Assembly: GCA_024239075.1 (NCBI GenBank)
Contig: JANBVI010000008.1
Location: forward strand, 62,001-126,000
DNA: 64,000 nucleotides
Source of the DNA: Fischerella sp. CENA71
GTDB taxonomy: Bacteria; Cyanobacteriota; Cyanobacteriia; Cyanobacteriales; Nostocaceae
Direction: 5' to 3'
Both the position numbers and the translations under genes were made by a program. The notes beneath the pieces are model-generated. The model saw nothing but the letters and a program-made list of their open reading frames with translations. It ran no database searches and was not told the origin of the DNA. This document shows, piece by piece, positions 6,653-61,548 of the stretch (position 1 is the first letter of the stretch; the number at the start of each line of letters is the position of its first letter).

Positions 6653-7228
6653 CTAAATAATAGAACACTTTCGATATAAAGCTTTATAAAGTAATTCTTG
6701 ATAATCTTGATCACCGACTCTATAAGCCCCAAATCTTTCTAAATGGGGATTCATCATTTGAGCATCAAATAACACAAATTGCCTTTCTCGTAATCTTTCT
6801 ACTAACTTCACCATTGCCACTTTAGAGCCATCAGGAATACGATAAAACATTGATTCGCCAATGAAAGCACCACCAATAACAATCCCTAAAATTCCTCCAG
6901 CAAGTTCATCACCTTGCCAAGTTTCAAAACTATACGCCCAACCTGTTTGGTAAAGTTGCCAATATATATCTTTTAATTCTGATGAGATCCAAGTTAATTC
7001 TCGGTTAGCACAACCTTCGACTACTGATTTAAAGTCGCGGTTCACTGCTACTGTAAAACGATTTTGATTCAGGACACGTCGTAGGGACTTAGGATAACGA
7101 AATTGATCATCTAAAGGAATGAGAGTGCGATCGCGACTTCCATACCAACCTAAGCCATTATCTTCATCAGCCATGAGAAAATAGCCTTGGGCATAGCCTT
7201 GAATGATAGCAGCAGTATCATATTCCAT
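6653..7228 (-). CDS. aat: Leucyl/phenylalanyl-tRNA--protein transferase
   Basis: Transfers Leu or Phe from aminoacyl-tRNA to proteins with N-terminal Arg or Lys, marking them for ClpAP-type degradation (N-degron pathway). Family signatures are visible: [12 protein letters not shown] near the N-terminus, [12 protein letters not shown], the glycine-rich [18 protein letters not shown] and [15 protein letters not shown]. The length of 191 residues is slightly short but usual for cyanobacteria. Confidence 0.93.
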
Positions 7229-7342
7229 AACATTAAAAATAAAAACATCGCCTAGTCACGCTATTAGATGTTAACAGTCATCCTCTGCGTTCCTTAGCGA
7301 TTCCGTTTTAACACTTGGTGCGTTTTAAGATAAATCAAAAAT

Positions 7343-7765: not shown

Positions 7766-8068
7766 CTACCAACTTGACTTAACGACTCCGGGTAAAAGGC
7801 CCTCGTGCGCCCATTCCCGCAAAACGTTCCGAGATAGTCCAAAATCACGGTACACACCTCTGGAACGACCGGTAGCCCAGCAACGGTTACGACGGCGAGT
7901 GGGTGCGCTGTTGCGGGGTAGCTGTTGAATTCGTCTGTGAATCTCCAGCTTATCCATAGGATCTTCTGTAGTTCTAAACTCTTCTAATAAAGCTTCCCGT
8001 TTAGCCGCATACTTTGCCACTAGTTTAGCGCGCTTTTTCTCGCGCTCAATCATGCTCTTTTTTGCCAT
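7766..8068 (-). CDS. rpsN: 30S ribosomal protein S14
   Basis: Small-subunit protein that contacts 16S rRNA in the head domain. At 100 residues it is the long, zinc-free form: the C-terminal [20 protein letters not shown] block has only one Cys, so the four-Cys zinc site is absent. It stands outside any ribosomal operon, as is usual for rpsN in cyanobacteria. Confidence 0.97.
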
Positions 8069-8131
8069 TGAATCTGTTACTTACTTTTTAAATTAAAAGA
8101 CAGCATTTCTCATTCTATCTGATGAAATTAT

Positions 8132-8815
8132 TTATTGGTTACTTGTTTGTTGTTGGTTTTCCCCTTTCCCTGATAAAGGACATAAATCTGCCAACTCACA
8201 AACCTCACATGCAGGATTACGGGCTTTGCACACAGCACGACCATGATAAATCAACCGAATTGACCAATTTTCCCAATCTGGTTGAGGCAAAAGGCGCATT
8301 AAATCTCGTTCAATATGAATAGGTTCCGTGTGTTCAGTCAAACCTAGACGTTGGCTGAGACGTTTGACATGAGTATCAACTGTGACACCAGCATTAATTC
8401 CAAAAGCATGAGCCAGAACTACATTTGCTGTTTTGCGTGCTACCCCTGGAAGCAACAATAATTGCTCCATCTGCTTTGGTACTTCACCGCCAAATTCGTT
8501 AACAATCATCCGACAGGCAGCTTGAATATTCTTGGCTTTGTTACGGTAAAATCCCGTAGAACGTACTAAATTTTCTAACTCACTCAACTCAGCATTAGCC
8601 AAACTCGGTGCATCTGGAAAACGACCAAATAGTGCTGGCGTCACTAAATTTACTCGCTCATCCGTACACTGGGCGGAAAGAATTGTTGCAACCAGCAGTT
8701 GCACTGGGGTGGAATAGTTTAGAGAACAAGTAGCATCAGGATAAAGACGCTTGAGTCGAACCAATATTTCTAGCGATCGCTGCTTTTTAGAAGACCATTT
8801 ACGTGTGTTGCTCAC
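8132..8815 (-). CDS. nth: Endonuclease III (DNA glycosylase/AP lyase)
   Basis: Removes oxidised pyrimidines from DNA and cuts the abasic site. The helix-hairpin-helix LLPGVARKTAN contains the catalytic Lys128, and the catalytic Asp147 lies in VTVDTHVKRL. The [4Fe-4S] cluster motif C-x6-C-x2-C-x5-C is complete (Cys196, 203, 206, 212). At 227 residues it has a normal length plus a short Gln-rich tail. Confidence 0.96.
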   Translation of the reverse strand: MSNTRKWSSKKQRSLEILVRLKRLYPDATCSLNYSTPVQLLVATILSAQCTDERVNLVTPALFGRFPDAPSLANAELSELENLVRSTGFYRNKAKNIQAACRMIVNEFGGEVPKQMEQLLLLPGVARKTANVVLAHAFGINAGVTVDTHVKRLSQRLGLTEHTEPIHIERDLMRLLPQPDWENWSIRLIYHGRAVCKARNPACEVCELADLCPLSGKGENQQQTSNQ

Positions 8816-17873: not shown

Positions 17874-18539
17874 TCACAGGGATTCCAATAAATTTACCCA
17901 CCCTTCGGGAAGGCTTCTGCCTACAGCAAGCATCTTGACCGTATGTCCTACGGCTGCAAGTCCGCGTATCGCGACTACTTGAGCGGATACAACATCTCTA
18001 TCAGTTGTGTATCCGCAATTCGAGCATTTATGAGTACGTTGTGACAATTCTTTTTTACCTGTCTCAATTCCGCAACTTGGGCAAATCTGGGTTGTTTTAC
18101 GTGCATCTACTTTTTGGAAATAGACACCACGCTTAAAACAAGTCTGCTCAAGGATATTGAAAAATTGACCAAACCCTGCATCTAGACAGTGTTTGCCCAG
18201 CATCCCTCTAGATAACCCAACTAAGTTTAAATCTTCAACAAACACCATTCCGGCGTCATTACAGATTTGGTGAGACAGTTTTCTATGCCAATCTTTACGA
18301 CAGTTGGCAACGTACTCATGCAACGAAGCAACTTTCTTTTGTGCTTTATACCAATTGTTCGAGCCTATACGTTTTTTGGAAACACGCTGTTGCAGCAATT
18401 TAAGCTTGCGTTCGGCATCTACAAAAAACCTCGGACGTTTGACTAAAAGCCCATTAGAAGTTGCAACGAAACTTGTTAGACCCACATCTATCCCTACTGC
18501 TTCGCCATGTGGCATTGGCTGTGGTAGGTTAACAAACAT
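17874..18539 (-). pseudogene. tnpB: TnpB (IS605 OrfB), N-terminally truncated
   Basis: RNA-guided nuclease of IS200/IS605 elements, here as a 221-residue fragment; full-length proteins have about 380-400. The RuvC active site is complete: Asp18 (GIDVG), Glu102 (VFVEDLN) and Asp181 (DRDVVSA). The zinc finger is intact (Cys152, 155, 171, 174). What is missing is the N-terminal part that binds DNA and guide RNA. A stop codon lies directly upstream of the first ATG, and no tnpA is present. It is most likely a decayed copy. Confidence 0.85.
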
Positions 18540-59767: not shown

Positions 59768-59835
59768 TTTCTCCTATCCAGCCACATCATGAGAAACCAC
59801 GTGATGACTCATTAGCATCTGAGGTTTTCAATTGT

Positions 59836-59944
59836 GCGATCGCTTACAGGTAGTTTGCTAATATCTGGACTTGATGATGAGCGATCGCACATTGCTGTGA
59901 TCGTAAGCTTTAGCCTAATTTTAGTAAACTCTCAGCAATTAAGA
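59836..59944 (+). repeat. Dispersed direct repeat, copy A
   Basis: Begins GCGATCGCTTACAGGTAGTT and ends near CTCTCAGCAATTAAG. It matches copy D (61321-61428) over its whole length of about 108 bp with scattered substitutions. Lies just right (upstream) of the kinase-like gene and left of the first toxin-antitoxin module. Confidence 0.75.
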
Positions 59945-60027
59945 ACAAAAGTCAGCCATCGCAAATCACTTATCAAACTCAACCGATAACCTCAATACGG
60001 TCGGCTGCACCAGGTTGTTAGATATTG

Positions 60028-60288
60028 CTACAATTTGCTGATTAGCTTGTCGTACTCTGCATGAGTTCCAATCCAAAACCAAGAAATACCATCTTCAACT
60101 TCAACACCTAAAGCCCGATAATCTAGCCCTGCGCGAACTGACCAATACTTGTTACCAATCTTTTTGAAGTGCAACGATGGATGAGATGGATCGGCTTTAA
60201 GCAACTCATAGTATTGATCAGCAGTTTGCTGTACGTTTTCGGGTAGGGTGTTGTAGCATTTCCAAAATCGTTGTGTCGTGTAGTGCAT
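60028..60288 (-). CDS. RelE/ParE-type toxin
   Basis: An 86-residue toxin of the RelE/ParE superfamily: small, basic, one domain, with the typical end FKKIGNKYWSVRAGLDYRAL and FWIGTHAEYDKL. Members cut mRNA at the ribosome or poison gyrase; which applies is not clear. The ATG at 60288 overlaps the antitoxin stop (TAATG), so this start is chosen over the upstream one at 60303. Second gene of its module. Confidence 0.82.
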   Translation of the reverse strand: MHYTTQRFWKCYNTLPENVQQTADQYYELLKADPSHPSLHFKKIGNKYWSVRAGLDYRALGVEVEDGISWFWIGTHAEYDKLISKL

Positions 60289-60488
60289 TAAATTTTTCGA
60301 CACTGTCCTGACTCGAATTCAGCGATCGCTTCTTGAGCTAAGGCTTCTAACTTACCATCTGCAATGTCTTGCTCTAGTTGCTCATCCCAACGTTGATAAT
60401 CCAAGTCAAAAAACCACTGCCTTAGACGCTCGAAGTCCTGTGATGGAAGTGTTAGAATTGCGGCTTCAATTTGTTCTAGGGTTGACAT
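60288..60488 (-). CDS. Antitoxin of the RelE/ParE-type module
   Basis: A 66-residue acidic protein (STLEQIEAAILTLPSQDFERL...EQDIADGKLEALAQEAI). The small size, acidic charge and TAATG overlap with the toxin gene fit the antitoxin role; the same pattern is common in cyanobacterial addiction modules. It should bind and neutralise the toxin and repress the pair. Confidence 0.8.
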   Translation of the reverse strand: MSTLEQIEAAILTLPSQDFERLRQWFFDLDYQRWDEQLEQDIADGKLEALAQEAIAEFESGQCRKI

Positions 60489-60536
60489 ATCAATAATTTA
60501 CATGTTTGCTTCTTGAGCAAATTATAGCTTTGCTGG

Positions 60537-60610
60537 ATAACCTTACAGTTTCAAAGGCGATCGCTTACAGGCATTTTGCTAGTATCTGGACTTGTTTTAT
60601 AGGTGATCGC
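60537..60610 (+). repeat. Dispersed direct repeat, copy B
   Basis: Includes the longer left part ATAACCTTACAGTTTCAAAG followed by GCGATCGCTTACAGGCATTT and ending near GGTGATCGCAT. Shares the left part with copy D (61301 on). It lies directly upstream of the first module's antitoxin gene and may overlap its promoter region. Confidence 0.7.
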
Positions 60611-60644
60611 ATCCTGTTCACTAAGACTTGAGGGTCTCAATCGG

Positions 60645-60708
60645 GCGATCGGTTATAGGTATTTTGCTAGTATGTGAATTTGTTTATGAGGGATCACGCA
60701 TTGTATGA
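60645..60708 (+). repeat. Dispersed direct repeat, copy C
   Basis: Short copy, GCGATCGGTTATAGGTATTT to GGGATCACGCATTGTATGA. In the middle (TTTTGCTAGTATGTGAATTT) it is closer to copy D than to copy B. Lies between copy B and the HicB gene. Confidence 0.7.
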
Positions 60709-60729
60709 TACTGCACCTCACAACAATAA

Positions 60730-60948
60730 TCAGGCAATTTGAAGCGTACTTGGGTTAGGAATAGATTCACCTTCTGTTTGCCAAGCTTCTAAGTACATTT
60801 CAATTACTTCCTCGCCATTACGTATTGCTTCCTCACGAGTTTTGCCATGAGTGCAAGGCATAACAACTCGATCAGCAAACTCTGGAATTGTAACCAGGAA
60901 AAGCTGATCTTCGTCAGACCATTGAATAATCATGCTATATCGGCTCAT
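60730..60948 (-). CDS. hicB: HicB family antitoxin
   Basis: A 72-residue protein with the HicB partial RNase H-like fold: SMIIQWSDEDQLFLVTIPEF and GKTREEAIRNGEEVIEMYLEAW. It should block the HicA toxin. It overlaps the hicA gene by 4 bases (ATGA), so the two are translated together. The C-terminal DNA-binding part of longer HicB proteins is absent, so autoregulation is doubtful. Confidence 0.88.
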   Translation of the reverse strand: MSRYSMIIQWSDEDQLFLVTIPEFADRVVMPCTHGKTREEAIRNGEEVIEMYLEAWQTEGESIPNPSTLQIA

Positions 60949-61169
60949 GAATCGTCGTTCTCCCTTAGCTCTTCAAGTGCAGTAAGTAATTTTGCTACCT
61001 GTTTTTCCAGATAAATTGGTACATCATCGCCATCCTTACCTGGGATTGTCAGTGTTTTTCTGAGCAGAGGATGTCGCCAACGCTCATGGCTACCTTTACC
61101 GCGCTTGGGCAAATAAACAAAACCCTGGCGCTCAATCTCAGCTTTCAACTCTCGAATTTTCCTGGGCAT
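60945..61169 (-). CDS. hicA: HicA family toxin (mRNA interferase)
   Basis: A 74-residue toxin with a double-stranded-RNA-binding-like fold that cleaves mRNA. The active-site His28 is visible in KGSHERWRHP, followed by LTIPGKDGDDVPIYLEKQVAKLL. First gene of the hicAB pair, in the usual toxin-first order. Confidence 0.9.
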   Translation of the reverse strand: MPRKIRELKAEIERQGFVYLPKRGKGSHERWRHPLLRKTLTIPGKDGDDVPIYLEKQVAKLLTALEELRENDDS

Positions 61170-61548
61170 GGATGTTATCTTAATTTTCTGGCTATTTTCT
61201 CACTTTCTCATCTTCTGAGATTGCCATATTGTTGATAACTGTTTTAATTTTACTGGCTACCAAGCGATCGCTCTGCACCCTCACAATTATCCTGTAACCG
61301 ATAACCTCACAGTTTCAAAGGCGATCGCTTACAGGTATTTTACTAGTATGTGAATTTGTTTATGAGCGATCACGCATTGCTGCGATGGTAAGCTTTAGCC
61401 TAATTTTGGTAAGCTCTCGGTAATTAACGACCAAGCTCACCGAAGCCGTCTTTTGGAGAATTGGTATTACAAGCTTGTAGTAACGACTTTAGTTGTTGCT
61501 TTCAAAAAAGAGGACTAAAGTCCTTACTACGAACTGAAAATTGAGAAT
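61170..61548. other. Intergenic region between tex and hicA
   Basis: Contains repeat copy D and, at 61460-61530, a TTGTAGTAACGACTTTAGT block facing ACTAAAGTCCTTACTACGA, an inverted repeat of a type common in cyanobacterial spacers. No gene seen. Confidence 0.5.
61298..61428 (+). repeat. Dispersed direct repeat, copy D
   Basis: The longest copy. Left extension CCGATAACCTCACAGTTTC (61298-61320 region), then a core from 61321 to about 61428 almost identical in plan to copy A (GTAAGCTTTAGCCTAATTTT shared exactly). Lies upstream of hicA, between it and the tex gene. Confidence 0.75.

Follow-up and report, generated by a model that had tools for sequence, protein, structure and literature searches.

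The 3' flank of the tex gene in Fischerella sp. CENA71 is probably an old integron cassette site, which now holds a decayed array without an integrase that has since been remodelled through direct repeats and HIP1 palindromes. The stretch analysed here (the window, 64,000 nucleotides) belongs to a genome of 7.47 Mb in 95 contigs (G000). Near its end, a kinase-like gene, repeat copy A, a ParE pair, copies B and C, a HicBA pair, copy D and a gene that we take to be tex follow one another in this order (Table 1). Two toxin-antitoxin modules among four copies of a repeat had already been described in the first-pass annotation, and the order of modules and copies given there agrees with the open reading frames and the Pfam matches. 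Pfam assigns a ParE-like toxin, which stands next to its partner, as well as HicB and HicA. Both pairs belong to named families, and judged by sequence they are putative toxin-antitoxin systems; the 66-aa ParE partner has no Pfam match. The kinase-like gene has homologues at 46 loci, 42 of them outside the genus and without tex in the DNA examined, and it is therefore a border of the array within the genus only.

Table 1. Features of the tex flank in the window, and one site of a related array (last line). R2 is the attC covariance model; its E-values are rough.
Feature	Position	Strand	Remarks
Kinase-like gene, 377 aa	58634..59767	-	PF00069 below cut-off; bounds the array on its far side within the genus
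Repeat copy A, long form	59836..59943	+	HIP1-bounded core 59836-59888; right end is the attC R' box, 59937-59943
Decayed attC site behind ParE	59937..60023	-	R2 34.3 bits, E 2.2e-6 in the window
ParE-like toxin, 91 aa	60028..60303	-	PF24732 above cut-off
ParE partner, 66 aa	60288..60488	-	putative antitoxin, by position only
Repeat copy B, plus a portion of the left block of D	60536..60615	+	
Repeat copy C, short form	60644..60703	+	on the 3' side of hicB
HicB antitoxin, 72 aa	60730..60948	-	PF15919 above cut-off
HicA toxin, 74 aa	60945..61169	-	PF07927 above cut-off
Left block of D	61225..61330	+	complete or partial at B and in four other arrays (G003, G140, G075 and G086)
Repeat copy D, long form	61320..61428	+	right end, 61422-61428, is GTTAATT on the - strand
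tex gene, 719 aa	61549..63708	-	3' flank is the hotspot
attC site behind parE in G075	L160:7328-7414		R2 28.5 bits

The four repeat cores share one orientation and lie at about 59835-59894, 60556-60615, 60644-60703 and 61320-61379. With copy D (61300-61440) as the query, a search of its own genome returns copy A at an E-value of 2e-28, copy C at 3e-19 and copy B at 1.4e-17, which excludes chance as the source of the four same-direction copies noted in the first-pass annotation; the next match is partial (C28:17111, E 1e-9). The agreement of A and D over about 108 bp was likewise read correctly. BLAST aligns 107 nt at 85% identity (59836-59942 with 61321-61427), and an ungapped pairing, which runs 11 nt beyond this alignment, gives 119 nt at 82%. 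Two of the starting points assigned to the copies, 60537 and 61298, turn out to lie in left extensions and not in the cores; the extension common to B and D (60536-60597 and 61300-61361) is 90% identical. The core of copy A measures 53 bp and has a HIP1 palindrome (GCGATCGC) at each end, and the other copies have HIP1 or near variants of it at the core borders. The first-pass annotation mentions neither these borders nor the attC-type box at which the long form ends.

The repeat is confined to one place. A sequence-only model of its core (R1), built from 12 copies of the genus, was run against 218 genomes of the family and finds 19 copies (E<=1e-6) in eight of them: the 12 training copies and seven independent ones, two each in G140 and G086 and three in G075. 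None of the 19 is farther than 7 kb downstream of tex, and of 66 tex flanks covered by a second scan, the same eight contain the repeat. Weaker R1 matches in 120 genomes are presumed to be HIP1 noise, with the exception of weak extra copies in the arrays of G075 and G086. A random scatter of copies across the genome, which the first-pass annotation had named as evidence against a link to gene modules, is thus not seen. A partial repeat occurs at a second locus (L045, L046, L047), upstream of a presumably glycogen-phosphorylase-like gene, in the window's genome, Fischerella sp. PCC 9431 (G004) and Fischerella muscicola PCC 73103 (G002). Among these three, it is adjoined by a HicBA pair in F. 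muscicola alone. The pair replaces about 75 bp there, and a stretch like the end of hicB can be seen by eye in the other two.

The gene content between the repeats changes from genome to genome. At this one site, the repeat accompanies different modules both in the genus and in two further genera: ParE-like, PIN, YafQ-like, HigBA-like and DUF433/DUF5615 pairs (the last of which we take to be a toxin-antitoxin pair) and two types of HicAB replace one another, and some of them are truncated. The comparison within the genus included, besides the two Fischerella genomes just named, Westiellopsis prolifica IICB1 (G003) and Pelatocladus maniniholoensis HA4357-MV3 (G001). P. maniniholoensis has the second HicAB type, a HicB remnant and a PIN pair. 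In F. muscicola, a ParE pair is accompanied by DUF433 with a truncated DUF5615 gene and by two further genes, one L-PSP (RidA-like) and one GNAT-like. W. prolifica has a TIR protein and a HicAB pair in which HicA is truncated, and PCC 9431 has DUF433/DUF5615 and a methyltransferase. The array of G075 is composed of a PIN pair, Uma2, a ParE pair, a toxin-like gene just below the YafQ cut-off and a Gp49/HTH pair, presumably of the HigBA-like kind. HicAB and two genes that we would name GNAT-like and SDR-like are found in G140, and a HicB fragment, a YafQ-like gene fragment and a CN-hydrolase gene in G086. Of the 21 modules or remnants counted in the seven arrays other than that of G086, 18 are co-directional with tex. 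Directly behind tex, G075 also has a small DUF6888/DUF6887 pair (L160:9858-10258), of which whole or partial copies are present in G140, G086, G091 and F. muscicola.

One site that carries varying and partly truncated modules with the same repeat supports the proposal, made at the outset, that the repeat is the footprint of a cassette that gains and loses modules. Further copies do flank other small gene pairs, a point that the first-pass annotation had proposed to check; the repeat also flanks genes of other kinds, namely the methyltransferase, Uma2 and the genes taken to be SDR and GNAT. None of the arrays compared, among which there are no strain-level pairs, shows a clean, empty site with one repeat next to an occupied one.

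The connection to integrons comes from attC sites. A covariance model (R2, with a short calibration and rough E-values) was built from 13 sites of the family, aligned in cassette orientation, which lie at integrase loci or in the G142 and G091 tex flanks; neither the window nor any repeat-bearing flank contributed a site, and two come from another locus of F. muscicola. In the stem of this alignment, 89.1% of the cells pair (70.4% after shuffling), the number of cells with changes on both sides is 41 (15.8) and covariation scores 0.480 (0.136+-0.028), values that 0 of 500 shuffles reached in each case, although part of the signal is expected because the stem was read off the same sequences. 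Sliding the partner by 1-3 columns lowers the covariation score to at most 0.175. The remaining two of the five pair measures are unremarkable: neither the pairs changed on both sides (9 vs 7.9) nor the further pair types (18 vs 15.6) stand out from the shuffles.

The R2 match in the window starts at the fifth base past the stop codon of ParE and has CTTAATT on the - strand as its R' box. The last six bases of the 107-nt alignment of A and D, TTAATT, are those that follow the crossover point in a box of this kind. A TTAAT box at a similar distance from the core is found in 5 of the 19 repeat copies (A, D, G075 7209, G140 2045 and G004b), three of which (A and the copies of G075 and G140) lie at attC matches. 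In copy D, GTTAATT (61428-61422) is an R'-type box whose other half was not recognised. The window site folds no better than its shuffles (z -0.56, other strand -1.22), and its E-value, scaled by length to the whole genome, is about 3e-4 and thus above the limit of 1e-4 used in the genome-wide scan, by which the genome has at least three attC-type sites. The next-best match in the window (18398-18481, 17.5 bits, E 0.043) was taken as chance. It is a weak one and overlaps a transposase-like open reading frame (17874-18539), presumably of TnpB type.

The position behind ParE recurs elsewhere. Of 30 ParE loci listed, ten were given to R2, and in four of the ten an attC site directly follows parE (the window, G075 at the same locus, G094 and G006); G094 and G006 have a second site 0.5-0.9 kb before parE. 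The attC site behind ParE, together with the attC sites and the integrase piece in the flanks of relatives described below, identifies the ParE pair as an integron cassette. For hicAB, cassette status was considered and is unsupported, since R2 finds no site behind the HicAB pair of the window and the homologous loci are similar in this respect. Among 20 loci with hicA homologues, R2 finds attC at E<1e-3 in two, the locus of the window itself and L141, in which the site is situated about 650 bp upstream. At ten loci of other genomes, the hicAB homologues share the operon only, and the repeat is absent. Half attC sites were noted by eye in three relatives: behind the HicAB pair in P. maniniholoensis, behind Uma2 in G075 and behind the L-PSP gene in F. 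muscicola, the last of these sites also being a weak R2 match (19.4 bits, E 0.034).

Five of the eight repeat-bearing genomes have attC at E<1e-3 in the tex flank: the window's genome, F. muscicola (53.4 bits), G140 (64.1), G086 (42.5 and 39.5) and G075. Folding is better than in shuffles for the sites of F. muscicola (z -4.5) and G140 (z -3.3), and not better for the G075 site (z -0.7). The tex flanks of P. maniniholoensis, W. prolifica and PCC 9431 have no R2 match at E<=5, and that of G011 has none at E<1e-3; among other tex flanks, 1 of 55 contains attC. Four sites are present in the tex flank of G142 (three of them training sites) and two in that of G091 (one of them a training site), both flanks in which the search with TIGR02249 revealed no integrase. 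Two simpler scans have been superseded by R2. The strict R-box scan gave one match in 12 integrase loci and none in 66 tex flanks, for which shuffled flanks gave a mean of 1.4. The relaxed scan gave 32 matches at integrase loci against 10.3 after shuffling and 57 against 32.7 in tex flanks, a modest excess, with good-looking sites in the flanks of G142, G091, G140 and F. muscicola.

Across the family, R2 detects attC-type sites at E<=1e-4 in at least 136 of 202 genomes, many of them on different contigs; these counts are lower bounds, because at most 22 candidates were scored per genome and the filters were strict. Single genomes have up to at least 21 sites, and some genomes without an integrase match that reaches E 1e-20 have sites as well (G005, for instance, at least 15). 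The integron integrase model TIGR02249 scores above its cut-off in 9 of 210 genomes, two of which show internal stops; at E<=1e-20 it matches in 43 of 210, for the most part only over a fragment. One such piece, 47 positions of the IntI C-terminus, lies in the tex flank of G140 (C180:56133-56273). The window's genome has integrase matches below the cut-off only, none of them at the tex locus, and the best is a partial piece on contig C1. Partial integron-integrase genes of the genus were noted at L241 (G000:C1:3597-3899), L242 (G002:C214:38965-39465) and L243 (G001:C38:14211-14351), and two attC sites follow the one at L242. With regard to an attI site, similar-looking stretches were seen by eye in G140, G142 and G011.

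That ordinary recombination remodelled the array at a later stage is suggested by joints at HIP1. In F. muscicola, a 45-bp piece that matches the second hicB gene of P. maniniholoensis (96% identity) joins the repeat at GCGATCGC. In G075, a 125-bp piece with 79% identity to its own tex stops at the HIP1 site of tex and continues as the repeat. Over eight arrays, 64 of 234 ends of local alignments fall within 10 bp of HIP1, against 17.2 expected, an excess that is overstated because one HIP1-bounded repeat is counted many times. Two strong copies and one weak copy in G075 (L160:5662-5733, 7209-7287 and 8058-8138) have, by eye, similar insertions of about 22 bp at one place, which indicates that copies were copied inside arrays; we take the insertions to resemble the very small repeats of cyanobacteria.

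It is unlikely that the locus is simply an island shaped by ordinary recombination, with repeats made by local duplication, toxin-antitoxin modules gained and lost through RecA and HIP1 recombination, and attC sites as incidental leftovers of a few cassettes. Such an origin would agree with the confinement of the repeats to one locus, the insertions common to the three G075 copies, the HIP1 joints, the HicAB pair of the window without attC, and the three flanks of the genus in which attC is absent. It does not account for attC in the tex flanks of several relatives, two of them well folded, for attC behind parE in four of the ten loci given to the model, or for the R' box that starts the long repeat in five copies.

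Two other readings had been put forward in the first-pass annotation, and neither is supported. A non-autonomous transposable element that carries or flanks toxin-antitoxin genes is hardly credible, because 19 copies at a single locus in 8 of 218 genomes leave no dispersed ones; copy A has 12-bp inverted ends (TGTGCGATCGCT and AGCGATCGCACA) as such an element might, but the common HIP1 palindrome sits in them. We also consider it very improbable that the repeat serves the modules as common promoter or operator DNA or, a further option, as a structured RNA. Copies B and D do lie 5' of the antitoxin and hicA genes, but A and C lie 3' of the modules, promoter-like patterns number 2 against 3.9 expected, and hicAB homologues elsewhere lack the repeat. 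As for an RNA, none of 16 predicted pairs is changed on both sides, and the repeats have no Rfam match at E<=1.

The preferred reading, a former integron array, would imply the following history. An integron integrase would have placed small cassettes, many of them toxin-antitoxin pairs, in series and mostly in one direction. The integrase would then have been lost from the array of the window, and the one attC site that can still be recognised would have decayed. The long form of the repeat would be the DNA directly behind the attC crossover point and would for this reason mark the joints between cassettes. Once the integrase was gone, modules would have been trimmed, fused and dropped by ordinary recombination, both from one repeat copy to another and at HIP1 palindromes. 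We infer this order of events, and the repeats and HIP1 would be the cause of the module losses. The other modules probably also are, or were, integron cassettes. Originally, the long repeat may have been the flank of a target site, the leader of a lost cassette, or a cassette without a gene; gene-less cassettes with promoter activity in Vibrionaceae are the subject of PMC11014356.

The array resembles integron arrays and CALIN in its attC-type sites with a covarying stem, its small and toxin-antitoxin cassettes, their mostly uniform direction, and the lack of an integrase at the site. It differs from them in that the window has a single full and decayed attC site, in that a repeat of about 108 bp behind the crossover recurs through the array, and in that joints lie at HIP1. 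In a complete integron, an integrase gene would stand at the array, and the window has none there. A CALIN, according to the default described for IntegronFinder 2 (PMC9024848), has two or more attC sites without an integrase, and the window has one attC site and one R'-type box. The portion of PMC8618304 considered here lists toxin-antitoxin systems among common integron cassettes, Cyanobacteria among the phyla with integrons, and integrase loss as one route to CALIN.

Pdif modules, in which Xer sites surround toxin-antitoxin and resistance genes, are similar in placing small toxin-antitoxin modules between short recombination sites, but the repeat discussed here is longer and runs in one direction. 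A parallel in a cyanobacterium is the ParE/ParD-like module of Microcystis MaOC1 (PMC7935541), likewise a toxin-antitoxin pair between same-direction repeats. It differs in having two identical 152-bp repeats, another inverted repeat and one module, and the part of that paper drawn on here does not mention an array or attC. Joints at GCGATCGC are shared with HIP1-associated recombination (Elhai 2015, PMC4390886), for which the sections of that article used here cite evidence of a role of HIP1 in site-specific or illegitimate recombination and state that none exists for a role in homologous recombination; in contrast to what they describe, the joints of the kind reported here are seen between natural relatives in a toxin-antitoxin array. 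Among the literature matches listed, which include no preprints and few subscription papers, there is no account of an integron-linked repeat or of a scattered attC system in filamentous cyanobacteria.

The findings link a repeat that had no explanation to the biology of integrons in cyanobacteria. At a single locus, attC sites range from well-kept to decayed, a series in which it can be asked how integrons die, whether toxin-antitoxin cassettes persist longer than the integrase, and whether recombination in nature takes place at HIP1 palindromes. On a wider and more tentative view, which we regard as possible rather than probable, the family would have a scattered integron system, with attC in most genomes and few full-score integrases. 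At the tex flank, DNA behind the crossover would have been copied along the array after the integrase was lost and would serve, together with HIP1, as a recombination substrate, so that the toxin-antitoxin array may shuffle without an integrase. With attC-type sites in most of the genomes scanned and an integrase above the cut-off in so few, the question of scattered cassettes can be tested directly in this family.
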